From contig NZ_LIUT01000001.1 of the NCBI RefSeq assembly GCF_001277345.1, positions 405,338 through 469,337 of the forward strand: a stretch of 64,000 nucleotides of DNA, given 5' to 3'. This document shows, in pieces, positions 35,223 to 63,772 of the stretch. The stretch comes from Paenibacillus solani (GTDB lineage: Bacteria; Bacillota; Bacilli; Paenibacillales; Paenibacillaceae). Position 1 is the stretch's first letter; each line of letters starts with the position of its first letter. Under the pieces are notes generated by a model. It was not told where the DNA came from, did not search any database, and saw nothing but the letters and a program-made list of their open reading frames with translations. The position numbers and the translations under genes are program-made.

Positions 35223-35303
35223 TTGAATTTCGAAATAAAATTTCAATATGATAGAGAGAGTAAATTAACTTCTTGTTAATACAGATTGGAGGTGGAATTA
35301 ACA
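35223..35303 (+). promoter_or_regulatory. palindrome-containing promoter and leader of the 2045-residue surface protein
   Basis: TTGAAT (35223-35228) and TATGAT (35247-35252) are 18 bp apart. The spacer holds GAAATAAAATTTC (35232-35244), an inverted repeat with 5-bp arms. The promoter at 47529 has the same -10, spacing and palindrome. In the leader, TTAAC-TTCTT-GTTAA (35265-35279) is a further inverted repeat, and GGAGGTGG (35288-35295) looks like a ribosome binding site with no start after it. The remaining leader to 35393 holds no gene. Confidence 0.6.
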
Positions 35304-35393
35304 AGTAAGCTCTATACTCCCGAGTAGGTCTCTCATTTTTTGAAAGACGCAGTAGGGAGAAATCAGATCCCCAGCTTAGAGAAGGAGGAATTC

Positions 35394-38300
35394 ATGTACA
35401 TGTTTCGGAACAAAAAGAAAATATCATCGTTGCTTAGCGGAGTGATGTTTCTATCGCTTCTGTTTCCTACCGGATTATCTGCTTCATCTGCTAATCCTGC
35501 TGCCTCGCCGTCGGTTATTGATATGCGCCAAACGGAGATTGGGCCAGGGGCTACATACACATGGGCAAATATGAAGAAGGGCAGTGGTGAGCAGAAGATC
35601 CACATGGTAGAATTTCATTCCTCGCAAGGGAATCTCGAGCTTCAGCCCGGACTCACGGACGGCAAGGTATACGGCATGCAAGGGGTCAGCAGCATGGCAT
35701 CCGCGGCGGACAAGGAAGGCAACCGTGTCATTGCCGCAGTAAACGGGGATTTTTATGATATGTCCACCGGGATTCCGCTCGGATTGTTTATGGGAGATGG
35801 GGAGTTTCTGACTGATCCGCCTAATGGACGGCTGGCATTCGGAATCAAGAAGGATGGAACTACTTTGTTCGGAAGTCCGAAATTGACGAAAAACGTGTCG
35901 ATAGGCGGAACCCTAAGCAGTCTATCATCCATCAACCGTCTTCGGGGGACGGACGCCCTTGTTCTTTATACTGAAAAATTTCAAGCAACAACGATGACGA
36001 ATAATCTTGGCGACGAGGTTATCCTGGATATCGTAAGCGGCAGAGCCGCCAGTGGGGAAACCATGACAATGAGAGTGGCCTCCATTCTTAAGGATCAGGG
36101 GAACTCTTCTATCGGAAAAAATCAAGTGGTGCTGTCAGCTTCAGGATCGCAGCGAAACAAGCTTGCAGGTCTAAATCCAGGTGACGAAGTGACCGCGACC
36201 TTTGCGTTTGAAGAAGCTTGGAAGGACGTCACGATGGCGATCGGCGGTAATGTGATGCTGGTGCAGGATGGCGCTGTTCAGCAGCATACCGATCCAGCCA
36301 TACATCCAAGAACGGTGGTTGGCACCAAAGCGGACGGATCGGTTGTGTTGTTTGAAGTTGATGGCCGTCAGCCCGGCTTCAGTGAAGGGCTTAGCTACAT
36401 GGAGCTTGGCGAAATGCTGAAAGAGCTGGGTGTGGTTAACGCGCTGAATTTGGACGGTGGCGGTTCGGCTACATTTGTCGCGCGTCTGCCTGGAGAATCG
36501 ATGGTCAAGGTACTCAACTCGCCATCAGATGGCGGTGAACGCAAGACGGCCAACGGTATTTTACTGGTGAACAAGGCTCTTGAAGGAGCAGCGAATAAAC
36601 TGGTCGTGGCTCCCACAATGGAGAGAGTATTAACGGGTTCCTCTGCAACTTTTAAGGCGGCAGCGGTGGATGAGAATCTGCATCCGGCCAGGATGACTGA
36701 GTCATTGATGTGGAGTATCGACCCAGTTTATGGAACCATTGACTCTAGCGGCACTCTCAAGACCGGGGAACTTGCCGGGCTAACGGAGATTGCGGTGCAA
36801 TCCGGCAATCTGACCGGAACAGCTAAAGTTGAGGTGGTGGACGAGCTAACAGAGCTCAGATTTCCCGACGTCGTAAAAACCCTCTCTTCGGGTTCTAAAG
36901 AGACGCTCAAGGTCATTGCGCTCCGCAATGGACAAGTGGTGCAAGCAGACAATAACCGCTTGGAGTGGCGAACGGAAGGAGAGATCGGTACGATTGACGG
37001 GAACGGCGTGATCACCGCAACGGATAAACAGGATGTCAGCGGTAAAATCTTCGTGAAGTACGGTCAAGTGGAGGCCTCCATGGATGTGAACGTGGGAATT
37101 CCACCCGTCATGCTGGAGGACTTCGAGAATGGGCTTGACCGTTATCTACCAAGCGCAGGAGCCCAGTATAAGTCAACCAAAGTATCCATTGAGACCGACG
37201 AGACCTACATTCGATCAGGAAATGGAGCATTAAAGCTGGAATATGATTTTACCGGAACGACAGGCACTTCTGGCGCCTATCTGCAGGCGAAGGAGGCCGG
37301 AGATCATATCGAAATTCCGGGTTATCCAGAGAAGATTAGTATGTGGGTTTACGGAGATGGTAACGGGCATTGGCTCCGCGCCCAGATCTATGACAGCAAG
37401 GGCAATATACCGCTCGATTTTACAGATCAGAGCATCGGTGTTGATTTCAAAGGATGGAAGTATCTTGAAGCTTCCGTGCCCAAGGGAAGAACCCTTCCTC
37501 TGAAGATGGACATGCCCGTTCGTTATATGGAGCCTCAGGCCGCGAAGAAGGATGCCGGGGTTATCTACGTAGATGAGATACGTGCATTATATGGTCCGGC
37601 AGATGACGATATCGATCCGCCGGTGTTGAAGAAATTTTCGCCTGCGGACGGTGAAGAGATCAAGGTGAATACGCCGACCATTACCGTTTACGCGGAGGAT
37701 GCAGGCTATGATCCTGAGGTACACCCCGGAACGACGCTGATCGATCCGGACAGAATCCGATTCTACCTGGACGGCAGTTTGGTACAGCATACCCTGTATC
37801 CGCCGGAAGGGAAGATCTATTACACCCCGAGTGTTCCGCTTGCCGATGGTGTGCATCAGGCGAAAGTAACCGTCCGTGACCTCTCCGGCAACCAAACGAC
37901 CGAGGAATGGCATTTCACGGTAAACACGGATGCTGCCAAGGTAGTGTATGGCACACCGGATACGGTCTACGCAGGCGGCAGCTATACGGTGGACATTAGC
38001 GGGGTAAAAACATCTTTAATACACAGCGGACATCTGGAATTTCAATTTGATCTAACCAAGGTGGAGAATCTGCAGCTTATACCAGGGGACAAGCTGAGTC
38101 CATCCCAGATTAGCGTAAGCATTGACCCTACTACAGGAAAGGTCAGAGTGACCTGGAAGGATATTCATGCCGCTTCTCTGCAGGATACGGATTGGATTGG
38201 ACAAATCCGATATGACGTGAAGAAGAACGCAACCGGAAGCAGCATCATTTCCCTTACATCCGGTGGAGTGTCCTTTGCTGATACGGGTAATACCGAATTT

Positions 38301-41300
38301 TCATTCTACGGTCTTCCGCTGAACTCGCAGATTGCTACGCATTATGCGCTTAGCTGGAGTGAGGAGGGTGCGGTGCAGGGGTACGAAACCGAGTTCTCCG
38401 TAACCGATGCACAGGGTCAGCCTGTCGAAGGCGCTATGATTATGGCTGATGGAGCAGCGGTTGGGACGACAGATGCAGCAGGCATTTTAAAGACGGGAAC
38501 GCTGACATCTCAGGTAAAGACGTACGAAGTACAGGCCGTGAAGAATAATCAATATAGCCCGGCCTTGGAGTTCAAGGTTTCCCCGCTGGCGGGAAGCCCG
38601 ATCCCAACTAATATCAGCGTAGGCATGGGCGAAGATCCTACCACGTCACGGATGCTGAACTGGCATACAGATCCTGCTACGGAACATACTGTTGTGGAAT
38701 TGGCCAAGCAATCGGAATTTACGGATTTCGCTGCGGGGAATATCCAAAAATTCGTTGGTACCAGCGAGTTGTACCATACGCTGGATTTGGGCACTGTCCG
38801 TGTCCATAAGGCAACGGCAGCCGGTCTTGAGCCAGACACGGAATATGTGTATCGTGTCGGTGATGGACAAGGTCATTACAGCACGCAAGGCTCTTTTAGA
38901 ACAACAGAGGTAACGGGAGATACGACAAAATTTCTATATTTTGCTGATTCACAGGCATCCTCTGCTAAAGAGTTCGAGCTGTGGGGGAAGACGATCGATA
39001 AGGCGGCAGCCGAGCACCCGGATGCTGAGTTTATGGTGCATGCCGGCGATATGGTGGATAAGGGGTTTTTGGAGGCACAGTGGAACTACTGGTTTGAAGA
39101 AGCCCAGAAACATTTCCTCCATACGACGCTTGTATCTGCCATCGGCAACCATGAAGTGATGGGAACGAAGGAGAACGGGGATTTCCTTGCTCACTTCAAC
39201 CAGCCGGGCAATGGTCTGGAGAGTCTGAAGGGAACCAATTTCTCTTTTGACTACAAGAATATTCATTTCATTATGCTGAACAGCGAGTATCAGCTGGAAG
39301 ATCAGAAAAAATGGCTCCAGCAGGACCTGGCCAGCAATGACAAGGATTGGACCATTGCGATGTTCCACCGCGGGCCATATGGAAGCATCTATGATTCCGC
39401 AGAGGTACGGAGCTTGTGGGCGCCAGTGCTTGAGGAATTCGGTGTGGATCTCGTATTGAACGGTCATGATCATATCTATATTCGTACCTTCCCAATGATG
39501 AATAACCAAATTGCAGCCGATGGAATAGGCTCAACCTACGTCGTCGCAGGTTCGTCGGGGCCTAAATTCTATTCCCATACGGAGCGGGGCTGGCATGAGG
39601 TGGTCGATGATGAACCGGCGCAGATGTATGCCTCCGTGGAAGTGAAGGGAGACGAGCTTCACTTTGTAACCAAAACGATTGGCGGCCGAGTCGTGGATGA
39701 ATTTACACTGACGAGATCGGTAATGAAGCCCAAGCCGGAGCGGTTGATCATAAATCCTGATCAGCTGAGTCTTGCCGTCAGCGAGAGCCATCCTTTAAGC
39801 GTCCAAGTGAAGCCAAGCGGGGCTGAGCGGACGGTGGTGTGGTCTGTATACCAATCCGAACCTGCGGAGGATGTCGTCAGTGTTTCCGTAGACGGAATCG
39901 TGTCGGCACAAAATATCGGCAGCGCGGTTGTAAGAGCGACCAGCACGGCAGCCCCGGAGGTCTATGCAGATGTGTTAATTACGGTGGACCGTGTGCCAGA
40001 GGGAAGCGTTGAATCGATTACCCTGAACGGCAGAACAGAGCTGAAGGTGGGGGATACGGATCAGACTGTTACAGAGGCGGTATATTCCGATGGCAGCCGG
40101 ATCCGTTTGATTGATGGTATTACTTACGAGAGTAGCAAGCCGGAGGTCGCTTCCATTGATGAACAGGGCTTAGTCCTTGCATTGGCAGAAGGAGCGACCG
40201 TGATTTCGGCGACCTACGAAGGATTTAAGTCGGTATATGATTTGAAAGTAAGAATGGTTGATGGTAGTAATCCTGGTCCGGAGCCTCCGGTAACGCCACC
40301 GGTGAATCCACCGGTTCAGCCACCGGTAAACCCACCGGTCCAACCGCCGGTAACACCACCCGTAATACCACCGGTGACGCCACCAATAGCACCGCCCGTA
40401 TCACCGCCATCAGGCAGCATTGCCTTATCCGCGAGCGAACTGGCAGCCAAGCTGTCAAATGGACAGGCAATTTTAATGCTAAACGGAAACTTTACGGATA
40501 TCACGCTGCCAGGAAATGCAGCTGACATTCTCAAGAAGAATGGCTCCCTTCGTATAGAAGCGAGTAACATGGCTATTACAATTCCGGCTGAAGTGCTTCG
40601 TCAGGTGGGTGGCCTTGCAGAGGCTGATCAGCTTGAGAAGGGCACGATAAAACTGAGCGCCGCCACACTATCGAATGCGGAGCTGAAGCAGCGGATCACA
40701 CAAGCTGCCCGCGTCTCCAGCGCTAAACTGACGGCTGCGGGAGATGTATTGGAGTTCCAGCTGCAAAGGATCACCGCGGATGGCCAAGCATTTAGCTTAA
40801 CTGAATTTGCACAACCCATCATGCTTGAATTACCGCTGCCAACAGATGCTGGTGGCAAGAGAATCTCCATGTACTATATTTCAGACAACGGTGCGTTGGA
40901 GTATATTGACGGCATGAACAAAGATGGCCGCATAATCGGGAAGATCAGGCATTTCAGTGCATACGGCTTGCTCAACTATGAGAAAATATTTGCCGATGTG
41001 AAAGCCTCGTTCTGGGCTGCGGATGTGATTAGTGAGTTAGCCGCGAAGCAGCTTATTGAAGGGGTCAGCATGGAACGCTTTGCTCCAGCTCGGCAGGTGA
41101 CCCGGGCTGAATTTGCAGCAATGCTGGTTCGTCTGCTTGATCTCCGGGCAGAGAGCTCTGCGCCGTTTGACGATGTATCTTCTGGCAAATGGTACGCAAA
41201 GGCGGTGGTAGCAGCCGCCCAGTCAGGCATCGTGAACGGAACCAGCACAAAGCATTTTGATCCCGAAACTCCAATTAAGCGTCAGGAAATGGCGGCTATG

Positions 41301-41531
41301 TTAGTTCGGGCATATGCCCACGCGAAGAACCAACCGCAGGGGGACAGCAGGTCAGGCAGCGAATTTGCTGATCTCGCTTCATCCCCGGAATGGGCTCGGG
41401 AAGCGGTAGAAACCGCGCATGTCCTAGGTTTAGTTGAGGGACACACTCCGAACCGTTTTGAACCGGAAGGCTTGACGACACGTGCGGAAAGCGCGCAGGT
41501 CATCTATAATCTGTTGCACAAACTGAAGTAA
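35394..41531 (+). CDS. giant SLH-anchored surface protein: phosphodiester glycosidase plus purple-acid-phosphatase-like domains
   Basis: 2045 residues; ATG 35394 follows GAAGGAGG. Rough order: signal peptide (1-30); NAGPA-type phosphodiester glycosidase (about 100-395, AAVNGDFYDMSTG, NALNLDGGGSATF); Ig-like segments; carbohydrate-binding-like module (about 572-735, SMWVYGDGNGHWLRAQIYDS); cohesin-like domain (about 850-975); FN3-like plus metallophosphoesterase of the purple acid phosphatase type (about 1065-1435, HAGDMVDKG, IGNHEVM, FHRGPYGS, NGHDHIY); Big-like domain; PPV-rich linker (about 1628-1672); a beta domain; three SLH repeats (about 1862-2045) binding wall polymer. It could release sugar-1-phosphates from phosphodiesters and then remove the phosphate (inference). 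A terminator follows. Confidence 0.88.
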   Translation: MYMFRNKKKISSLLSGVMFLSLLFPTGLSASSANPAASPSVIDMRQTEIGPGATYTWANMKKGSGEQKIHMVEFHSSQGNLELQPGLTDGKVYGMQGVSSMASAADKEGNRVIAAVNGDFYDMSTGIPLGLFMGDGEFLTDPPNGRLAFGIKKDGTTLFGSPKLTKNVSIGGTLSSLSSINRLRGTDALVLYTEKFQATTMTNNLGDEVILDIVSGRAASGETMTMRVASILKDQGNSSIGKNQVVLSASGSQRNKLAGLNPGDEVTATFAFEEAWKDVTMAIGGNVMLVQDGAVQQHTDPAIHPRTVVGTKADGSVVLFEVDGRQPGFSEGLSYMELGEMLKELGVVNALNLDGGGSATFVARLPGESMVKVLNSPSDGGERKTANGILLVNKALEGAANKLVVAPTMERVLTGSSATFKAAAVDENLHPARMTESLMWSIDPVYGTIDSSGTLKTGELAGLTEIAVQSGNLTGTAKVEVVDELTELRFPDVVKTLSSGSKETLKVIALRNGQVVQADNNRLEWRTEGEIGTIDGNGVITATDKQDVSGKIFVKYGQVEASMDVNVGIPPVMLEDFENGLDRYLPSAGAQYKSTKVSIETDETYIRSGNGALKLEYDFTGTTGTSGAYLQAKEAGDHIEIPGYPEKISMWVYGDGNGHWLRAQIYDSKGNIPLDFTDQSIGVDFKGWKYLEASVPKGRTLPLKMDMPVRYMEPQAAKKDAGVIYVDEIRALYGPADDDIDPPVLKKFSPADGEEIKVNTPTITVYAEDAGYDPEVHPGTTLIDPDRIRFYLDGSLVQHTLYPPEGKIYYTPSVPLADGVHQAKVTVRDLSGNQTTEEWHFTVNTDAAKVVYGTPDTVYAGGSYTVDISGVKTSLIHSGHLEFQFDLTKVENLQLIPGDKLSPSQISVSIDPTTGKVRVTWKDIHAASLQDTDWIGQIRYDVKKNATGSSIISLTSGGVSFADTGNTEFSFYGLPLNSQIATHYALSWSEEGAVQGYETEFSVTDAQGQPVEGAMIMADGAAVGTTDAAGILKTGTLTSQVKTYEVQAVKNNQYSPALEFKVSPLAGSPIPTNISVGMGEDPTTSRMLNWHTDPATEHTVVELAKQSEFTDFAAGNIQKFVGTSELYHTLDLGTVRVHKATAAGLEPDTEYVYRVGDGQGHYSTQGSFRTTEVTGDTTKFLYFADSQASSAKEFELWGKTIDKAAAEHPDAEFMVHAGDMVDKGFLEAQWNYWFEEAQKHFLHTTLVSAIGNHEVMGTKENGDFLAHFNQPGNGLESLKGTNFSFDYKNIHFIMLNSEYQLEDQKKWLQQDLASNDKDWTIAMFHRGPYGSIYDSAEVRSLWAPVLEEFGVDLVLNGHDHIYIRTFPMMNNQIAADGIGSTYVVAGSSGPKFYSHTERGWHEVVDDEPAQMYASVEVKGDELHFVTKTIGGRVVDEFTLTRSVMKPKPERLIINPDQLSLAVSESHPLSVQVKPSGAERTVVWSVYQSEPAEDVVSVSVDGIVSAQNIGSAVVRATSTAAPEVYADVLITVDRVPEGSVESITLNGRTELKVGDTDQTVTEAVYSDGSRIRLIDGITYESSKPEVASIDEQGLVLALAEGATVISATYEGFKSVYDLKVRMVDGSNPGPEPPVTPPVNPPVQPPVNPPVQPPVTPPVIPPVTPPIAPPVSPPSGSIALSASELAAKLSNGQAILMLNGNFTDITLPGNAADILKKNGSLRIEASNMAITIPAEVLRQVGGLAEADQLEKGTIKLSAATLSNAELKQRITQAARVSSAKLTAAGDVLEFQLQRITADGQAFSLTEFAQPIMLELPLPTDAGGKRISMYYISDNGALEYIDGMNKDGRIIGKIRHFSAYGLLNYEKIFADVKASFWAADVISELAAKQLIEGVSMERFAPARQVTRAEFAAMLVRLLDLRAESSAPFDDVSSGKWYAKAVVAAAQSGIVNGTSTKHFDPETPIKRQEMAAMLVRAYAHAKNQPQGDSRSGSEFADLASSPEWAREAVETAHVLGLVEGHTPNRFEPEGLTTRAESAQVIYNLLHKLK
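40277..40410 (+). repeat. 12-bp period repeat coding for a PPV(T/N/Q) linker
   Basis: About ten units of CCACCGGT(A/G)A-type sequence encode PPVTPPVNPPVQPP and similar. The unit is also used at 50600-50775, giving long stretches of near-identical DNA about 10 kb apart. Confidence 0.85.
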
Positions 41532-43140: not shown

Positions 43141-43295
43141 AGTTGGGATGAATAAGGGGCAGTATTTAGGTTCTCATGTCTTTATTTACATACGTTTTAC
43201 GCTGGGATAACAACCCATTAATCCCCCTTTGTTATGCTGGAGCTGTTTGAGAGTTCTTGATACAGACCCACCTACATAACAAAAGGAGAGAATAA

Positions 43296-46200
43296 ATGAT
43301 TAATCACATGTACAAGAAGCTATTATCCATGCTGTTATCTACGGCACTTGTGTTAGGGTTTTTTACAGGTATTGGGGGTCCTACAGCAGTAGAAGCCGCT
43401 ACACAGGATCAACCAGATATTTTGCTGCATCGGAATGCCGAGTGGAAGTATTTTGATCAGGGCCAAGATTTAACAACCGTATGGCGCGCCACTTATGATG
43501 ATTCCTCTTGGGAATCCGGACTGGCTCCTTTCGGGTATAAAGATAACGGTAGTGGGGTATCTACTGCTGAATTTGGGTCGCTAAATACCGAAGTTTCCTA
43601 TGGTCCGGACAAGAAGCTCAAACACCGCACAACTTATTTCCGTACGAATCTTCATGTCAACAAGGATCAAATTGACGGTTACGGCCAGATTCTCGGCACG
43701 TTTGGTGTTGATGATGGCGCCGTCGTTTATGTCAATGGTCATGAAATCAGACGTATGGGTTTACCTGAGGGTGAGATTACTTATGATACAAAGGCGACCT
43801 CGAACAAGGACCTCCCTGTTGTGTATAAGGATGTCGATCTGACGGAGCCGCTGAAAGCATATTTACAGGATGGCAACAACGAAATCGCGGTCGAGGTTCA
43901 TCAGCAGAGTGATAGCAGCTCAGATCTGTATTTTGATATGGAACTTGCCGCGTTAGCACAGGCGCCGCTGCTTGATATTTCAAAGGTTACCGTAACCTTC
44001 TATGGAGATGCGACAAGCACGAAGGGGTTTACATGGTATACTCCGCTGGTCTCTTCGCAAAGTGATGTACAGGTTGTGGAGAATCGCGGCACTGCGCCGG
44101 ACTTTAGCCAGGCCCTGGAATTTAGCGGGCGAACCTCCGTTTCCTCGAATTCTCCAGGTGAGCATGTACATAAAGCGGAAGCGACAGGCTTATCGGCAGA
44201 TACCTCCTATTATTTCAGGGTCGGGGACCAAAGTCTGAATTTATGGAGTGAGATAGGAACCTTCCAAACAGCACCTATCAGCGGTCCCTTCACATTTATT
44301 GATCTGACGGATACACAGGCGAAGGAAGAGGACGAGGCCAGTCTGTCGGCAGCCACCTTGTCCAAAGCGCTTGCCACAATCCCGAATGCCAAATTCGTGA
44401 TGCATAACGGAGATGTGGTCGAGAACGGCACCTCAGAGCAGGAATGGAACTGGCTGCTGGGCCATTCGCAATCCAGTCTTTTGAACACAACCATCGTGCC
44501 GGCAGCGGGCAACCATGAGGATAAGAACTATGCCTTCTATGAGCATTTTAATGTGAAGCAACCGGATAACGCTGCGACAATTACTGGCGCGTACTACTCT
44601 TACGATTACAGCAATGCGCATTTCATCGTGCTTAACTCCAATGAGAATTCATCCGAGTACGCGAACTTCTCAACAGAGCAAGTAGCGTGGATGAAACAGG
44701 ATGTGGAGCAGGCGAAGGCTGCTGGAGCAAAGTGGATTATCGTCAATATCCATAAAGGGCCTTATACAACATCGAATCATGCAACTGACAAAGACATAAT
44801 TGGCGCTAATGGAGTAAGAAACCAAATTGCTCCCCTGATGAACGAGCTTGGGATTGATATGGTGCTGCAGGGACATGACCACATCTATGCGCGTACGAAG
44901 CCAATCAAGCGTGATGGAACTGCAGAGGATGTCACCAAAATTACCGAGACGCTAAATGGGCAGAGCATCGAGTACGCAGTTAAACCGGATGGAACCATCT
45001 ATATGATTCCTGCTACCGCAGGGGCCAAGGTTTATTTCAAGAACCAAAAGCCGGAGCTGGGAGACGCGTATTTCAATTTGTTTGAGCGGGCAGAAGAGAA
45101 TCATGCCCGTAAATACGGGGATTCAACCAGCCTTGCCAGAGGTCAAGTTCAGAACTTTGTCGGTTTTACGATCGACGGGGGCAAGCTGACGGCCGTAACA
45201 TATGAAATCGATCAGAATCAGAACAGCGGGCAGCCGTTTATCGTGGATCAGTTCGGTATCATGAAGGAGACAAAACCGGATCCTGTTCAAGAAAAAGTGA
45301 GTAAAGTAACGGTTACATTCCATGGTGATGCCAAAACGTCCAAGGGTTTTACCTGGTATACTTCTCAGCAGGTGACAAACAGTGATCTTCAAGTTGTGGA
45401 GAAGTCTGCGGCTGCGGCTGACTTTACGAATGGGATCTCGTTCCAAGGACGTTCGGCTGCTTCTACTAATTCTGAGGCAGAACTTGTGCACAAAGCAGAA
45501 GCAACAAAGCTCAAGCCTAACACATCCTACTATTTCCGCGTAGGGGATGCAGCGCTTGGGGTTTGGAGCGAGACGGGAACCTTCCAGACTGCGCCGGAGA
45601 AAGGTGCATTCACGTTTATTGATTTGGCCGATACGCAGGCGAAGGAAGAAGAGGAGGCCTTGCTCTCATCCGAGACACTGGCCAAAGCTCTGGCTACTGT
45701 GCCGGAAGCACAATTCGTCATCCATAACGGCGATATTGTAGACAAGGGCGTCAAGGAAGAACAGTGGAACTGGTTGTTAGGGTATTCGCAGCAAAGCTTG
45801 CTCCATACAACGCTGGTGCCATCTGCGGGCAACCATGAGGATGAGAACTACGCTTTTATCGAGCATTTCAATGTGCAGCAGCCGGACAACTCGGCAACAG
45901 AGACTGGAGCGTATTACTCGTACGATTACAGCAACGCGCATTTCGTTGTTTTGAATTCCAATGAGGATTCGGACACGTACGATAATTTCTCGGTCGAACA
46001 GGTGGAATGGCTTAAACAAGATGTGCAAAAGGCTAAAAAAGCCGGCGCACAGTGGGTGATCGTTAATATTCATAAGGGTCCGTACACCACTTCGAATCAT
46101 GCGACGGACTCCGATATTATGGGAGCCAATGGCGTTAGATCCAAGATTGCTCCGTTAATGGCAGAGCTCGGCATTGATTTGGTATTACAGGGTCATGATC

Positions 46201-47408
46201 ATATTTATGCCCGCACCAAACCGATCAAAGCTGACGGAAAAGCGGCAGAGGTAGAGAAAATTACGGAAATGCTAAATGGTGAGAAGCTGGAATATTCGGT
46301 CAATCCGGAAGGTGCAATCTATTTGATTCCAGCCACCGCGGGACCTAAGGTCTATTATAAGAATCCGAGTGAAAAGCTTGGAGATGCATACTACGGACTG
46401 TTCGAACGTGCGGAAGAAAACCACGCGGCTAAATATGGCCCCGATCCAAACGATAATCGGCGACCGAAACGCAGCCAGGTACAGAATTTCGTCGGTATTA
46501 CGATAGATGGCGGCAAGCTGACTGCGGTCACGTATGAAATTGACCAAAATCTTAAAGGAGCACAGCCGTTTATCGTTGATCAATTCGGTATTGTGAAGAA
46601 GGATGCTGTTGTGCCGAAACCTGATCCGGGTACTCCAAATCCTGGGACACCGAATCCTGGGACACCAAATCCGGACTCCGGCATTTCCAATCCAGGACCG
46701 GGAAGCAGTTCTAGTTCGGGCAGCAATCCTGGTTCCGGTTCTGGGAATGGAACAAGCTCAGTCCCTGCAAACGGTTCAGGTACGGGGAATGGGACGAAGC
46801 CGGATAATGGATCGGGTACAGATTCCCAGCATGGAAGCAATCAAGATACGGATTCAGACAAAGGTAATCCGCCAGCGCTGAAGGATACTGCGGGGCACTG
46901 GGCCAAATCAGCCATCGATAAGGCTGTGGCAGCTGGTTTCATTAACGGCTATGGAGATGGAACTTTCAGGCCTAATCAACAGGTTACACGGGCAGAGTTC
47001 ATCACGATGCTGGTACGCGCGCTGCATCTTGATGAAGGCGGTGTTCAGCTCTCATTCCGTGACGCAGCCCAAATTCCTGCTTGGGCGAAGGATGCTGTAG
47101 CACAAGCAGTGGAAGCTGGTATTATCAGCGGTTACAAGGATGGCTCCTTCGGCCCTCATAAGCCGCTAAATCGGACGGAGCTGGTAGCGATGATCGTTCG
47201 CGCCAGCGGAATCAGCCCGGATTCGTCAGCGAAGCTGACTTTTAAAGATGCGAAGGAGATACAAGCGTGGGCTCGTCCCTATGTAGCGGCTGCAGTGGAA
47301 GTAGGATTGGTTGGCGGTGTAGGTAACAACCGCTTTGCACCACAGCAATTCGCAACACGTGCGGAAGCCGTGACGCTGATCATCGAACTTCTTGAATACG
47401 TGAACTGA
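43296..47408 (+). CDS. SLH-anchored surface protein with two tandem purple-acid-phosphatase-like modules
   Basis: 1370 residues; ATG 43296 after AAGGAGAG. Order: signal peptide (about 1-36, ending VEAAT); galactose-binding-like domain (about 42-222); phosphatase module A (about 227-665; MHNGDVVENG, AGNHEDKN, VNIHKGPYTTSNHA, LQGHDHIYARTKPI); phosphatase module B (about 667-1104; IHNGDIVDKG, AGNHEDEN, the same histidine motifs); a Pro/Gly/Ser/Asn-rich linker (about 1105-1192); three SLH repeats (about 1195-1370, WAKSAIDKAVAAGFINGYGD and two more). Both modules keep the metal-binding Asp/Asn/His residues, so both should be active outside the cell on phosphate esters. It uses its own promoter and terminator. 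Confidence 0.88.
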   Translation: MINHMYKKLLSMLLSTALVLGFFTGIGGPTAVEAATQDQPDILLHRNAEWKYFDQGQDLTTVWRATYDDSSWESGLAPFGYKDNGSGVSTAEFGSLNTEVSYGPDKKLKHRTTYFRTNLHVNKDQIDGYGQILGTFGVDDGAVVYVNGHEIRRMGLPEGEITYDTKATSNKDLPVVYKDVDLTEPLKAYLQDGNNEIAVEVHQQSDSSSDLYFDMELAALAQAPLLDISKVTVTFYGDATSTKGFTWYTPLVSSQSDVQVVENRGTAPDFSQALEFSGRTSVSSNSPGEHVHKAEATGLSADTSYYFRVGDQSLNLWSEIGTFQTAPISGPFTFIDLTDTQAKEEDEASLSAATLSKALATIPNAKFVMHNGDVVENGTSEQEWNWLLGHSQSSLLNTTIVPAAGNHEDKNYAFYEHFNVKQPDNAATITGAYYSYDYSNAHFIVLNSNENSSEYANFSTEQVAWMKQDVEQAKAAGAKWIIVNIHKGPYTTSNHATDKDIIGANGVRNQIAPLMNELGIDMVLQGHDHIYARTKPIKRDGTAEDVTKITETLNGQSIEYAVKPDGTIYMIPATAGAKVYFKNQKPELGDAYFNLFERAEENHARKYGDSTSLARGQVQNFVGFTIDGGKLTAVTYEIDQNQNSGQPFIVDQFGIMKETKPDPVQEKVSKVTVTFHGDAKTSKGFTWYTSQQVTNSDLQVVEKSAAAADFTNGISFQGRSAASTNSEAELVHKAEATKLKPNTSYYFRVGDAALGVWSETGTFQTAPEKGAFTFIDLADTQAKEEEEALLSSETLAKALATVPEAQFVIHNGDIVDKGVKEEQWNWLLGYSQQSLLHTTLVPSAGNHEDENYAFIEHFNVQQPDNSATETGAYYSYDYSNAHFVVLNSNEDSDTYDNFSVEQVEWLKQDVQKAKKAGAQWVIVNIHKGPYTTSNHATDSDIMGANGVRSKIAPLMAELGIDLVLQGHDHIYARTKPIKADGKAAEVEKITEMLNGEKLEYSVNPEGAIYLIPATAGPKVYYKNPSEKLGDAYYGLFERAEENHAAKYGPDPNDNRRPKRSQVQNFVGITIDGGKLTAVTYEIDQNLKGAQPFIVDQFGIVKKDAVVPKPDPGTPNPGTPNPGTPNPDSGISNPGPGSSSSSGSNPGSGSGNGTSSVPANGSGTGNGTKPDNGSGTDSQHGSNQDTDSDKGNPPALKDTAGHWAKSAIDKAVAAGFINGYGDGTFRPNQQVTRAEFITMLVRALHLDEGGVQLSFRDAAQIPAWAKDAVAQAVEAGIISGYKDGSFGPHKPLNRTELVAMIVRASGISPDSSAKLTFKDAKEIQAWARPYVAAAVEVGLVGGVGNNRFAPQQFATRAEAVTLIIELLEYVN
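43975..46605 (+). repeat. tandem duplication of a phosphatase module of about 1.3 kb
   Basis: Segments 43975-45290 and 45295-46605 encode clearly related modules with the same motifs in the same order. Long stretches match at protein level (for example the NFSTEQVAWMKQDVEQAKAA versus NFSVEQVEWLKQDVQKAKKA parts). The two copies have since diverged. Confidence 0.85.
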
Positions 47409-47708: not shown

Positions 47709-50700
47709 ATGAGAATTAAGAGGCGTATCAAGCGAAGCAGCAGAATCATTTTGCCCATGGTTTTAGCTTTTACAGTAATGTTCAGCTCGGCAGTTTCCGC
47801 AGCGGAAAATTTCTTTGATATGTCTGCAACTTCTGAAGGTTCTGAGCATGTCGTCCTGGAGAATTTTGAATCCGTAACGAATTTGCTCGCTTCTTCGGCC
47901 CGGGGAAAGGCCCAGCTGGATTTAGTGGGGAGGCCTGAGCCGATCTATTATGGTCATCATGCTGCAGCTTTAAGTTATGATTTTGTAGATGGTGAATCCG
48001 GCACTTCGGCGGCGTATCTCAACTTCAGAGACCCGGACGGGTCAATGGGCAGAAGCGTACCAGGCTCACCGACTGCTCTAGGGTTATGGGTTTACGGCGA
48101 TGGCGGGGATCACTGGCTTCGAGCTCAGCTTCTGGATTCATCCGGTGGCACGCATACCGTGGACTTAACCTCGACGAGCGGCTTTAGCTGGAAAGGCTGG
48201 AGGTACGTCAAATTTAACGTTCCGTCTGCTATCAAGTATCCCCTTAAAGTGAACCAAATCTATATCGCGGAATTAAAAGACACGAATAAGAACAGGGGGA
48301 CCGTGTACTTCGACAGGTTGTCCGCATTCTATTCGAATTCCCAAGTGTATGGGCTCGATATAGGTGGACTGACTCCCCTGAGTGTTGGAGAAACGGTGAA
48401 GCCTCAAGTATATGCTACATACGAAGGACAAACCGAGCCTGTATTGGTTACTGACGGTGTGAAGCTGACCAGCAGTGACGACAATATTGCCACAGTGACA
48501 GGAGTGACCTACGACACGATCGAGGCATTGGCACCGGGAACGGTCACGATAACAGCTCAATACGGTGACGCGCCGAAATCTCAGTATGAGCTTCATATTA
48601 CGGCGGATACGCCACACCCTGGTGAATTACTGTTATCCGGGCCGCTTCATATGGAGACAAGCGTTACCGGCAAGATGAGAACCAGTGTGGTTTATTCCGT
48701 TTACGGTACCCCGACGGACCCTGTGTGGCTGACAGAAGATATCAGTTATGCCAGCGACCAGCCGGGCGTTGTATCGGTAGACCAAGCCGGCCAATTGACT
48801 GCTATTTCCGCTGGAACGGCAGCCATCACCGCTTCGTACCACGGCATGTCCGCGAAGCATGATATTACGGTAACGGACCCGGTTCCTGTACTGCAGAGCA
48901 TCGAGCTTCAAGGCCTTACAGCGGTTACGGTCAGTGACTCATTCGAGACCGTAGTATCGGCAACCTACTCCTGGATGGAGGAGCCGGTGATTATTACGGA
49001 AGGTGTTACGTTTACGAGCAGTAATCCGAATGTAGCTACTATCGATCCTAAAGGAGTGGTATCCGGCTTGATGACAGGTTCCACGAGAATAACAGCTGAT
49101 TTTCAAGGAAAGAGCAGCTCGCTCTATGTTACGGTAAATGAAGCTTCCGGGCATCCGAAGACCGAGATGAGAGCTGCTTGGATTGCGACCGTGGACAACA
49201 TTGACTGGCCTGCCAAAGGCGTCACCGATCCGGAGCAGCAGAAGTTACAGTTTATCACTCTGCTGGATCAGCTCGAGGATGCAGGGATGAATGCCGTAAT
49301 TATGCAGATCAAACCAACGGCAGATGCCTTCTATCCCTCCCAATATGGCCCTTGGTCCGAATGGTTGACGGGTATCCAGGGCAAAGATCCGGGTTACGAT
49401 CCGCTGGCTTTCCTTCTTGAAGAGGTCCATAAGCGGAACATGGAGTTTCACGCTTGGTTTAATCCGTACCGCATCAGTCTGCAAGGGGATGTCAACAAAC
49501 TTGTAGAGGACCATCCAGCGAAGCAGCATCCGGAATGGGTTGAAGAATATGGCGGCAAGCTGTATTTTAATCCAGGGATCCCGGAGGCACAGCAGTTTAT
49601 TATCGATGGCATTATGGAGGTCGTGCGGAACTACGATATTGATGCTGTGCATTTTGACGACTATTTCTATCCGTACCCTGTAACCGGTGTGGATTTCCCG
49701 GATACGGACACGTTTAATCAATACAAGGGTACCTTTACAAATAAGAGTGTCTGGCGAAGAAATAATGTCAACGAATTCATACAGAACGTGAATGCTGCCA
49801 TTAAGGCGGAGAAGAGCTATGTGAAATTCGGTATTAGCCCGTTTGGCATCTGGAAAAATAAATCCAGTGATCCGGCAGGTTCTGAAACTAACGGTTTGGA
49901 AAGTTATAATGCCATTTATGCTGATTCAAAAAAATGGGTGGATGAAGAATGGATCGACTATATAACGCCGCAGATTTATTGGAACATCGGGTATTCCGCG
50001 GCTGCTTATGATAAGCTGATCGATTGGTGGAGCGAGGTAGTCTCAGGCAAAAGGGTTCATTTGTACAGCGGACAAGCTCTGTATAAAATCGGTTCGAACA
50101 CCGATTGGTCAAACCCCGAGGAATTGCCGAACCAGATCAAATACAACCGCAACTATGAAGAAGTCCAGGGCAGTATGTTTTTCAGCTCCAAATGGTTTCG
50201 GGATAACGCGCTTGGCTTCACAGACAGGCTGAAAAATGACCTATACCGATATCCGGCGTTAATCCCGGCGATGCCTTGGATCGATTCGACAGCGCCGTCA
50301 TCTCCGCAGGGTCTGAAGGCTGAGTTTATACAGGAAGGGGTAAAGCTTAGCTGGTCATCAGCAGGTGATGAAGCGTATTATGCCGTATATCGCTTTGAAG
50401 GCGAAGAGGCAGGCAATATCCAGGATCCATCACATTTGATAGGGACATTCCGAAAGTCCGCGGATACGGTGCAATCGCTGGTGGATCGTAGCGTATTGAA
50501 GGATCAGGAGTATACTTACGTGGTGACTTCGGTTAATCGGCTTCATAACGAAAGTGACTCGAATTCATCGGTGACGGTCAAAACAGGTGACAATGGTCAT
50601 CCGCCGGTGACACCACCGGTGGATCCGCCAGTGACGCCTCCAGTCACACCACCGGTGAATCCACCCGTGACGCCACCGGTCACACCGCCGGTGACGCCTC

Positions 50701-51335
50701 CAGTCACACCACCGGTGACACCGCCAGTGAATCCACCCGTGACACCACCGGTGAATCCTCCCGTAAAGCCGCCGACAACGCCGAAGACACGGGAATTCAG
50801 CGATATAGAGAAGGTGGGCTGGGCGAAGTCGGCTATTGAGAAATTGGCTGCGCTGGGCATTGTGGAAGGAATGGGACAGGACTCGTTCGAGCCGCTAAAG
50901 CCGGTAACTCGAGCCGAATTCTTGGCGATGCTGGTTCGTGCTTTCCAGCTGGAAGGATCGATAGATCTTCAATTTACGGATGTGAAACCAACCGACTGGC
51001 ACTACGCGCTGATCGCCTCTGCGGTAGATGCTGGGTTAGTTCAAGGCGTGGGCGGGGGTAAATTTGAGCCGAATCGTCCGATTACCCGTCAGGAGATGGC
51101 TATTATGAGTGCTAATGCCTTGTCCTTATTCGCCGATATGAAGGCTGACGACGAGGGCGGAGCCTTGGCGAAATTTAAGGATAACAGCAGCATTGCGGGG
51201 TATGCGCGAAGTGCTGTCGCCCTCTTGGCCGAGAAAGGCGTGATTCAAGGGACTGGTCATGACCGATTTACACCAAAAGGCATCGCCAATCGTGCTCAAG
51301 CAGCAGTTATTATTTATAACTTGTTGAATCTTTAA
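47709..51335 (+). CDS. SLH-anchored GHL10-family glycoside hydrolase with Ig-like and binding modules
   Basis: 1208 residues; ATG 47709 after GAGGAGTG. Order: signal peptide (about 1-32); carbohydrate-binding-like module (about 46-209, ALGLWVYGDGGDHWLRAQLL) closely similar to the module in the 2045-residue protein; three Big/Ig-like domains (about 214-476); GHL10 (YngK-like) TIM-barrel hydrolase (about 485-857, AAWIATVDNIDWPAKGVTDP, MQIKPTADAFYPSQYGPWSE, FHAWFNPYRIS, VHFDDYFYPY, DYITPQIYWNIGYS); FN3 domain (about 859-959); PPVT linker (961-1026); three SLH repeats (1028-1208). GHL10 enzymes act on wall or exopolysaccharide glycans. Shares its promoter type with the phosphodiester-glycosidase gene. 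Confidence 0.9.
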   Translation: MRIKRRIKRSSRIILPMVLAFTVMFSSAVSAAENFFDMSATSEGSEHVVLENFESVTNLLASSARGKAQLDLVGRPEPIYYGHHAAALSYDFVDGESGTSAAYLNFRDPDGSMGRSVPGSPTALGLWVYGDGGDHWLRAQLLDSSGGTHTVDLTSTSGFSWKGWRYVKFNVPSAIKYPLKVNQIYIAELKDTNKNRGTVYFDRLSAFYSNSQVYGLDIGGLTPLSVGETVKPQVYATYEGQTEPVLVTDGVKLTSSDDNIATVTGVTYDTIEALAPGTVTITAQYGDAPKSQYELHITADTPHPGELLLSGPLHMETSVTGKMRTSVVYSVYGTPTDPVWLTEDISYASDQPGVVSVDQAGQLTAISAGTAAITASYHGMSAKHDITVTDPVPVLQSIELQGLTAVTVSDSFETVVSATYSWMEEPVIITEGVTFTSSNPNVATIDPKGVVSGLMTGSTRITADFQGKSSSLYVTVNEASGHPKTEMRAAWIATVDNIDWPAKGVTDPEQQKLQFITLLDQLEDAGMNAVIMQIKPTADAFYPSQYGPWSEWLTGIQGKDPGYDPLAFLLEEVHKRNMEFHAWFNPYRISLQGDVNKLVEDHPAKQHPEWVEEYGGKLYFNPGIPEAQQFIIDGIMEVVRNYDIDAVHFDDYFYPYPVTGVDFPDTDTFNQYKGTFTNKSVWRRNNVNEFIQNVNAAIKAEKSYVKFGISPFGIWKNKSSDPAGSETNGLESYNAIYADSKKWVDEEWIDYITPQIYWNIGYSAAAYDKLIDWWSEVVSGKRVHLYSGQALYKIGSNTDWSNPEELPNQIKYNRNYEEVQGSMFFSSKWFRDNALGFTDRLKNDLYRYPALIPAMPWIDSTAPSSPQGLKAEFIQEGVKLSWSSAGDEAYYAVYRFEGEEAGNIQDPSHLIGTFRKSADTVQSLVDRSVLKDQEYTYVVTSVNRLHNESDSNSSVTVKTGDNGHPPVTPPVDPPVTPPVTPPVNPPVTPPVTPPVTPPVTPPVTPPVNPPVTPPVNPPVKPPTTPKTREFSDIEKVGWAKSAIEKLAALGIVEGMGQDSFEPLKPVTRAEFLAMLVRAFQLEGSIDLQFTDVKPTDWHYALIASAVDAGLVQGVGGGKFEPNRPITRQEMAIMSANALSLFADMKADDEGGALAKFKDNSSIAGYARSAVALLAEKGVIQGTGHDRFTPKGIANRAQAAVIIYNLLNL
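50600..50775 (+). repeat. 12-bp period repeat coding for a PPVT linker
   Basis: About fourteen PPV(T/N/D/K) units encoded by CCACCGGTGACA-type DNA. Compare 40277-40410. Confidence 0.85.
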
Positions 51336-63327: not shown

Positions 63328-63552
63328 AATGGAAATAAAACATGATGGTAACGAAATTATACTTGCTGTATAATTCTCAGTATTATATATAAAAGTGATG
63401 TTCTTCATTGTAATCCTGCCTAATTTCATTTATTGTGAAAATAGATGTATTTACATGAAAGAATTCATGGTATAATTTCAACAAGGCAACTAAAGTAATA
63501 GGAATTGTCGGTTAATTGTATGGAATGGTTACAAAAATAAAACATGAATATG
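63328..63552. other. AT-rich non-coding stretch before the riboswitch
   Basis: No gene seen. It should contain the promoter of the riboswitch-controlled gene; TATAAT at 63472-63477 is a candidate -10 box. Confidence 0.45.
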
Positions 63553-63713
63553 GATCTTCGGGGTAAGGTGAAATTCCTAACCGGCGGTGATGGTTCGTAC
63601 CTCCTTGGACGAAACTCAGCCCGCGACTCGCTGCGTTCTGGTACTTATATGAATGCAGCGACTGACTTGGTGCAATTCCAAGGCCGACGGTAAAGTCCGG
63701 ATGGGAGAAGATC
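63553..63713 (+). ncRNA. FMN riboswitch (RFN element)
   Basis: The conserved RFN pieces are all present in order: ATCTTCGGGGTAAGGTGAAA at the 5' end, CCTAACCGGCGGTGATGG, AGCCCGCGA, GACTTGGTGCAATTCCAAG, GCCGACGGTAAAGTCCGGAT and GGGAGAAGAT closing the P1 stem with the first ATCTTC. It binds flavin mononucleotide; FMN would promote the downstream terminator and so shut off the transporter gene. Confidence 0.95.
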
Positions 63714-63772
63714 AATGATGAGTTTGCTATCGGAACGGGATTTTTCTGTTCTTGAGGCAGGCTTGTTTGATC

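Follow-up and report, generated by a model that had tools for sequence, protein, structure and literature searches.

Calcineurin-like phosphoesterases of the bacterial cell surface have undergone a radiation, to which ShfP belongs, and according to the accessible part of its description the fusions found in it include S-layer homology (SLH) and NAGPA domains (PMC11488536, Sci Adv 2024). The fusion protein considered here is encoded in a 64,000-nucleotide stretch of Paenibacillus solani DNA (contig NZ_LIUT01000001.1, positions 405,338 to 469,337; the whole stretch is called the window, and all positions are window coordinates), where a NAGPA phosphodiester-glycosidase domain and a calcineurin-like metallophosphoesterase (MPE) lie on one SLH-bearing chain. 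On balance, we consider it to be a PhoP-controlled, S-layer-anchored phosphate-scavenging enzyme acting on sugar-1-phosphodiesters. Since SLH and NAGPA fusions are already listed for the radiation, the architecture is a variant of it, and the belief in the initial annotation that the pairing was undescribed has to be given up, even though the accessible description provides neither Pho control nor a fixed spacing nor a two-step reaction for the NAGPA fusion. In the literature searched, which was seen mostly at the level of listings, both domains on one chain were named only in PMC11188070 and PMC11488536, and no treatment of the regulation, conserved spacing or two-step reaction of the fusion was seen. 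What appears to be new here is the putative Pho-type promoter of the fusion gene.

The radiation resembles the fusion in comprising secreted proteins with multiple immunoglobulin-like (Ig) modules and a calcineurin-like domain (PMC11488536, as far as accessible), whereas for Bacillus subtilis ShfP the accessible text describes a lamin-tail domain and a putative sigma-G site, and neither NAGPA nor SLH (PMC11188070). The order of the chemistry proposed below is that of mammalian NAGPA followed by ACP5 or ACP2, where the sugar is taken off GlcNAc-P-mannose in the uncovering step (PMC12024695) and the exposed phosphate is then removed by ACP2/ACP5 (PMC12645810; both sources accessible in part). 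The mammalian NAGPA is also alike in fold (VIA Z 18.0 between the model introduced below and guinea-pig NAGPA, 6pku_A, over 219 amino acids (aa) at 3.0 A), but the mammalian pair consists of separate proteins that reside in different compartments and serve protein sorting, not phosphate supply. ACP5 is a purple acid phosphatase (PAP), and unlike ACP5 the MPE of the fusion lacks the PAP tyrosine.

A bacterial NAGPA structure of one-domain size is provided by BACOVA_00430 (3ohg, DUF2233; VIA Z 20.2, 28% identity over 247 aa, 3.2 A), the solved chain of which is, in contrast to the fusion, a single domain of 285 residues with no phosphoesterase or SLH part. With respect to phosphate supply, the nearest counterparts are B. 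subtilis PhoD and GlpQ, PhoPR-dependent phosphodiesterases that recover phosphate from wall teichoic acid (WTA; PMC6232261), and PhoD shares with the fusion an N-terminal FN3 domain (PMC11188070; in both cases from the parts accessible). The two differ from the fusion in having WTA as substrate. Neither of them is known to carry a glycosidase domain or an SLH anchor.

The fusion gene and its parts, all on the + strand, are as follows:

35265..35318, +, putative Pho-type promoter, TTAACT-n5-TTAATA-n5-(G-rich)-n5-TTAACA-n9-TATACT, with the -10 element at 35313-35318
35394..41531, +, fusion-protein gene, 2045 aa, start ATG 35394, ribosome-binding site aaggagg
35394..35486, +, probable signal peptide, aa 1-31, assigned by visual inspection of the sequence alone
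35499..36578, +, NAGPA phosphodiester-glycosidase domain, aa 36-395 (Pfam, alignment, model fold)
36582..37097, +, two Big_2/S-layer-type Ig modules, aa 397-568 (model matches to SbsC, Big_2-CBM56 and LigA)
37095..37601, +, carbohydrate-binding-module (CBM)-like domain, aa 568-736 (CBM_11 below cut-off; beta-sandwich in the model)
37938..38345, +, cohesin-like domain, aa 849-984 (Pfam and model fold)
38604..38903, +, PAP N-terminal (FN3-type) domain, aa 1071-1170 (Pfam)
38931..39479, +, calcineurin-like metallophosphoesterase, aa 1180-1362 (Pfam, alignment)
39714..40223, +, Big_2 region, aa 1441-1610 (Pfam), differing in copy number among homologues
40989..41522, +, three SLH repeats, aa 1866-2043 (Pfam)

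The gene forms a single open frame, and its ATG at 35394 is preceded by a strong ribosome-binding site (aaggaggaattc), while the mechanical open reading frame (ORF) call begins earlier, at TTG 35340. From the N- to the C-terminus, the product comprises NAGPA, two Big_2-like modules, the CBM-like module, cohesin, the PAP-type N domain, the MPE and three SLH repeats. NAGPA, Cohesin (narrowly), Pur_ac_phosph_N, Metallophos, Big_2 and SLH exceed their curated Pfam cut-offs, and CBM_11, Big_13 and CarboxypepD_reg stay below theirs. The observation with which the initial annotation began, namely that a NAGPA-type and a phosphatase-like domain share one SLH-anchored chain, is thus confirmed by profile search for both catalytic domains. 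Two parts were modelled with AlphaFold, aa 36-743 (mean pLDDT 76) and aa 736-1440 (mean pLDDT 63).

Homologues were collected as stretches of up to 20 kb at 60 loci, and 12 named fusion loci from a scan that yielded 18 brought the total to 72. The order NAGPA-CBM-cohesin-PAPN-MPE is found in 64 of them, the remaining eight forming a second class, and its recurrence argues that the fusion is no effect of assembly or chance. For the counts given below, 57 of the 64 full fusion loci were used; among the seven left out (L037-L041, L045, L046) five stem from repeat genomes, and L037 and L039 were dropped too though their genomes are no repeats. Both are included in alignments of 13 rows, where the motif residues of the two catalytic domains are invariant as well.

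The NAGPA domain scores 130.1 bits in Pfam (PF09992; cut-off 25), and the model of aa 36-743 matches 6ozd_A with VIA Z 29.3, in addition to the structures mentioned above. Its motifs (NGD/NGG, RT, VDG, NLDGGGS) align with those of 3ohg, 6u11 and 6pki, vertebrate NAGPA included, and the motif residues N117, D119, R306, D323, G324, R325, D354-GGG-S358, D379, E382, R383 and N387 do not vary in any of the 57 homologues, and neither do P305, N375, S378, G380 and T385. Profile, fold and motifs alike place the domain in the NAGPA family, with hydrolysis of sugar-1-phosphodiesters as the predicted activity.

In the phosphoesterase half, the PAP-type N domain (Pur_ac_phosph_N, PF16656) reaches 61.3 bits (cut-off 30) and Metallophos (PF00149) 66.4 bits (cut-off 21.5). 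The metal-ligand motifs D / GD / GNH / H / GHxH are complete (D1185, D1219, N1252, H1253, H1325, H1358, H1360) and invariant in all 57 homologues, as are S1186, Q1187, G1218, G1251, E1254, G1327, G1357 and Y1362. In sequence comparison, a wheat purple acid phytase ranks among the best matches to the PAP-N and MPE part (phmmer E 3.9e-17 to chain 6git), and it is also the top Foldseek match of the aa 736-1440 model (6giz_A, E 2.1e-14, TM 0.15/0.21, rmsd 25 A, at low pLDDT), in which an FN3-type domain was recognised. The MPE part of this model is mostly of low confidence, with means of 24-76 for blocks of 10 residues, and the identity of the MPE therefore rests on its sequence. The phytase differs from the fusion in the motif-II tyrosine (GDxxY), the mark of purple acid phosphatases and the source of their colour: the fusion reads GDMVD where 1xzw has GDLSY, with Asp in 48 and Glu in nine of the 57 homologues. 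Motif I reads D-S-Q, with Gln in all 57 at the position where His (D-x-H) is usual across the superfamily. A true PAP, as the earlier label of a purple-acid-phosphatase-like domain might suggest, is accordingly not supported; the domain is a calcineurin-like phosphoesterase preceded by an N domain of PAP type, and the word purple should be dropped.

The binding and anchoring modules, too, bear out what had been proposed. The CBM-like module stays below the CBM_11 cut-off (23.2 bits vs 27), and its beta-sandwich in the model matches CBM11 of 6r31_A (VIA Z 10.8, 143 aa, 2.8 A) and FlaA1 of 9cyn_B (VIA Z 16.4). Cohesin lies just above its cut-off (25.9 bits vs 24.1) and the cohesin fold is found in the model (Z 11.9 to 4uyp_A, 132 aa, 2.8 A), dockerin binding being a predicted role only. 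SLH scores 95.5 bits in three stretches. Two dockerin_1 matches above the cut-off occur in the same genome, in long ORFs at C8:3287372 (L305) and C8:3291427 (L304), the former of which by eye combines dockerin, cohesin-like modules and SLH; together they possibly constitute a small non-cellulosomal cohesin-dockerin set. In a relative (L150), visual inspection suggests a dockerin repeat in place of SLH at the C-terminus of the fusion, hinting at anchoring via a cohesin.

Spacing bears on whether the two catalytic domains act together. Over the 57 counted loci the gap between NAGPA and CBM is 174-176 aa and that between NAGPA and MPE is nearly fixed (779-803 aa, standard deviation (SD) 7.6), while the gap between MPE and SLH varies from 97 to 699 aa (SD 110; 53 of the 57 having SLH). 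Were the two domains independent enzymes that merely share an anchor and serve separate substrates with no relay, a near-constant distance between them, as opposed to the variable one to the anchor, would not be expected. This alternative, which strikes us as quite improbable, could draw on the resemblance of the cohesin and Big_2 modules to spacers, on a neighbouring SLH protein with two phosphoesterase units and no NAGPA, and on the shorter NAGPA proteins, with open frames of about 320-460 aa, that often occur in the genus. Against it, the pairing recurs in the second class (L160-L167, about 30% identity) and outside the family. In the second class, Metallophos exceeds its cut-off in four of four loci scanned and MPE motifs were seen in the others, the domain being so divergent that it was missed by single-sequence search and found by Pfam; SLH is present in six of the eight, L160 lacks GHxH, and the NAGPA motif is altered in seven of the eight to VDKP for VDGR (G324 to K, R325 to P). 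Outside the family, 12 stretches from 10 genomes of a phylum draw were obtained, four of which (L209, L211, L213, L214) encode NAGPA and Metallophos; one of these also has cohesin and PAP-N, arranged as in the fusion, and SLH was matched in none of the four. The distances among homologues of the two catalytic domains are correlated (r = 0.79, 1653 pairs), a correlation that a common phylogeny could by itself produce.

With respect to distribution, 37 of 100 genomes from the genus have a match to the NAGPA part at E <= 1e-100. In a draw of 245 genomes from the family the figure is 45, of which 36 belong to the 213 genomes outside the genus, and at E <= 1e-15 a match is present in 189 of 398 genomes drawn from the phylum; the architecture itself was verified in the retrieved loci.

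The second line of evidence is the putative promoter. In an alignment of 28 of 73 upstream regions, picked by hand, those of the nearer relatives have TTAACN, TTAACA, a G-rich element and TTAACA following one another at 11-bp steps, with TATACT 9 bp further on. Such direct repeats of 11-bp period before a -10 element, as at pst operons, suggest predicted control by PhoP. A scan with the PhoP consensus, compared with dinucleotide shuffles, gave p <= 0.05 in 40 of the 73 upstream regions (repeat genomes included) for four repeats and in 23 of the 73 for three. A search pattern built from the fusion-gene promoters, with up to two mismatches allowed and the reversed pattern as control, matched five sites in the 6.2-Mb P. 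solani genome and none in reverse. These precede the fusion gene, a pst operon (PstS by scan, two permeases and an ATPase by eye), a gene for a stalk-type protein with one for a PstS-family protein behind it, a ugpA/E/B-like operon and a phnT/U/S2-like transporter operon; both PstS matches exceed the NCBIfam cut-off.

In nine other carriers, the pattern gave 61 matches against one for the reversed control (duplicates arising in G061, which has 10% contamination), and the fusion gene was matched in eight of the nine. For 28 of the 53 other matches, the first downstream ORF resembles a protein of the set found in P. solani: 25 precede pstS (7), ugpA (5), phnT (5), pstB (4), PstS-like (2), stalk/PstS (1) or double-phosphoesterase (1) genes, and three precede distant UgpB-like ORFs (24-30% identity). 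Three loci gave no ORF, and a Pfam scan of ten ORFs from the 22 matches left over yielded two phosphonate-binding proteins, an alkaline phosphatase, a PAP2, a metallo-beta-lactamase, two chemotaxis receptors, a solute-binding protein, a weak lamin-tail match and one without any match. Among the retrieved loci, up to three mismatches were found in 26 of 66 upstream regions (those of 57 fusions, the eight second-class loci and the window gene) versus seven of 664 other ORFs, mechanically called and including those of the seven left-out loci; five of the seven are orthologues of the neighbouring double-phosphoesterase gene, one genome being counted twice among them. The promoter pattern favours the idea of expression under phosphate limitation. 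Rfam found no structured RNA leader over threshold near the fusion gene. In Paenibacillus sonchi, pstS and glpQ are induced at low phosphate; in the accessible part of that report the terms metallophosphoesterase and glycosidase do not occur, and a table contains one S-layer protein at -4.02 (PMC7793946).

Two side observations concern this pattern. At L272 and L279, chemotaxis-receptor genes carry it 1.3-1.5 kb before pst matches, possibly reflecting phosphate taxis under Pho control. At L280 (111-3200, in a relative), it lies with two mismatches ahead of a long ORF whose lamin-tail match, below cut-off, recalls ShfP with its own lamin-tail domain.

The scavenging enzyme that we favour has its computed support in the domains, the invariant motif residues, the near-fixed spacing and the promoter pattern. 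Upon phosphate depletion, phosphorylated PhoP would turn on the fusion gene along with the PstS operons and the organophosphate transporters, and the CBM-like module would hold a glycan at the cell surface. NAGPA would then cleave the sugar from a sugar-1-phosphodiester, leaving a phosphomonoester on the other partner, which the calcineurin-like domain of the same chain would hydrolyse to inorganic phosphate for import by PstSCAB. In this scheme PhoP binding, glycan binding, the order of the steps, the activity of the MPE as a monoesterase and not a diesterase, and the substrate are all predicted. If true, a soil phosphorus pool made up of phosphoglycans, phosphomannans and nucleotide sugars would gain a dedicated surface enzyme in Paenibacillaceae. 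NAGPA-family proteins were found in 100 of 100 genus genomes. To our knowledge, the physiological substrates of the bacterial ones are largely open, and the Pho-type promoter would assign one class of them a concrete role in phosphate scavenging.

Candidate substrates would be a phosphoglycan of the environment or of the own wall, fungal phosphomannan, nucleotide sugars and the GlcNAc-1-P-MurNAc bond through which wall polymers are attached. The initial annotation had thought of teichoic-acid-like polymers, and the cell's own glycerol-phosphate teichoic acid was rejected as a shared substrate: over 100 genus genomes there is no positive association with the TagB/F family (PF04464), which at E < 1e-30 occurs in 14, four of them among the 37 carriers and ten among the 63 genomes without a strong fusion match (Fisher p 0.56). 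With the threshold relaxed to E <= 0.001, the family is matched in 36 (8 of 37 vs 28 of 63). With two strong matches, P. solani is itself one of the four carriers, and in this genome glycerol-phosphate teichoic acid may be a substrate. These figures bear directly on a degrader of teichoic main chains in the manner of PhoD and GlpQ, in which the MPE would be a phosphodiesterase and NAGPA would trim sugar-1-phosphate branches or backbones. PhoD is a calcineurin-like enzyme that degrades WTA (PMC11488536) and, like GlpQ, depends on PhoPR (PMC6232261; both as accessible), and SLH anchoring, the Pho-type promoter and the two TagB/F-family matches would suit such an enzyme as well. It nevertheless appears unlikely in view of the distribution of TagB/F, which speaks to the own WTA and not to foreign polymers.

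A further alternative places the reaction at the wall linkage itself, NAGPA cutting the GlcNAc-1-P-MurNAc bond by which secondary wall polymers are fixed to peptidoglycan and the MPE clearing the phosphate from MurNAc, whereby a starving cell would shed its polymer and regain phosphate. In type, this bond equals the one cleaved by the uncovering enzyme, and an SLH anchor sits on a wall polymer, but the known uncovering enzyme takes terminal and not substituted GlcNAc. WecG/TagA-family genes are present in 100 of 100 genus genomes, so the link is probably available in all of them, whereas the fusion is strongly matched in only 37; the yield, at one phosphate per chain, would moreover be poor. 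GlcNAc-1-phosphate on MurNAc carries WTA, and a streptococcal polysaccharide is attached via GlcN-1-phosphate to C6 of MurNAc (PMC8807736, in part), yet a limited, non-exhaustive literature search turned up no enzyme of this kind, and we hold the proposal to be very improbable. For a patchily distributed, surface-anchored gene with a Pho-type promoter, environmental sugar-1-phosphodiesters would be the simplest fit. A bolder version of the scavenging enzyme can be put forward tentatively, namely a one-chain "uncover, then dephosphorylate" enzyme, corresponding in a single bacterial protein to mammalian NAGPA followed by ACP5, that would be the first of the Pho regulon dedicated to sugar-1-phosphodiesters as a source of phosphorus, working on an S-layer arm of fixed distance and, in its boldest form, cutting the GlcNAc-1-P-MurNAc root and clearing the phosphate scar.

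Several points weigh against Pho-controlled scavenging of sugar-1-phosphodiesters. The loss of the PAP tyrosine and the Gln in place of the motif-I His make monoesterase activity uncertain, and the two strong TagB/F-family matches of P. solani itself were mentioned above. The third repeat of the promoter is G-rich and not TTHACA, and since the pattern was drawn from fusion promoters, matches in close relatives are partly circular, only those at other genes being independent. Even among the latter, 22 of the 53 were not tied to phosphate by the scans made or precede only distant UgpB-like ORFs, three more having no ORF; one (L268) precedes an ORF that by eye looks like IMP dehydrogenase, and two others precede the chemotaxis receptors. 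The ugp- and phn-like proteins of P. solani match those families best, yet below the NCBIfam equivalog cut-offs, and the fusion gene of G007 was missed by the pattern. Since 40 of the 66 fusion upstream regions have more than three mismatches and a clear box is lacking in many of the distant carriers, the case for Pho control is confined to P. solani and its nearer relatives and does not extend to the whole family.

Downstream of the fusion gene, two further features lie on the + strand:

43185..43238, +, weaker Pho-type box before the double-phosphoesterase SLH gene, with three mismatches here and two in orthologues
43296..47408, +, SLH protein carrying two PAP-N/Metallophos units in succession, 1370 aa (Pfam)

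In L115, the orthologue of the latter is split into two ORFs. It is followed at 47709-51335 by a GHL10 glycosidase-like SLH protein, orthologues of which carry the CBM-like module of the fusion; the two window proteins share a weak FlaA1-like match at this module, and no Pho-type box was found at the GHL10-like gene (best 6 mismatches). The neighbourhood was viewed over about 6 kb before and about 8 kb after the fusion gene. Within these flanks, PGA_cap adjoins the fusion in 13 loci, which come from 10 genomes, each that of a near relative. L124 also has a GHL10-type gene upstream of the fusion, and L127 a phosphoesterase gene downstream of it. Because the flanks are short and many loci have no PGA_cap, GHL10 or phosphoesterase neighbour, gene neighbourhood was rejected as a functional clue. 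At the far end of the window, an FMN riboswitch (RF00050, 108.7 bits) is located at 63550-63716.

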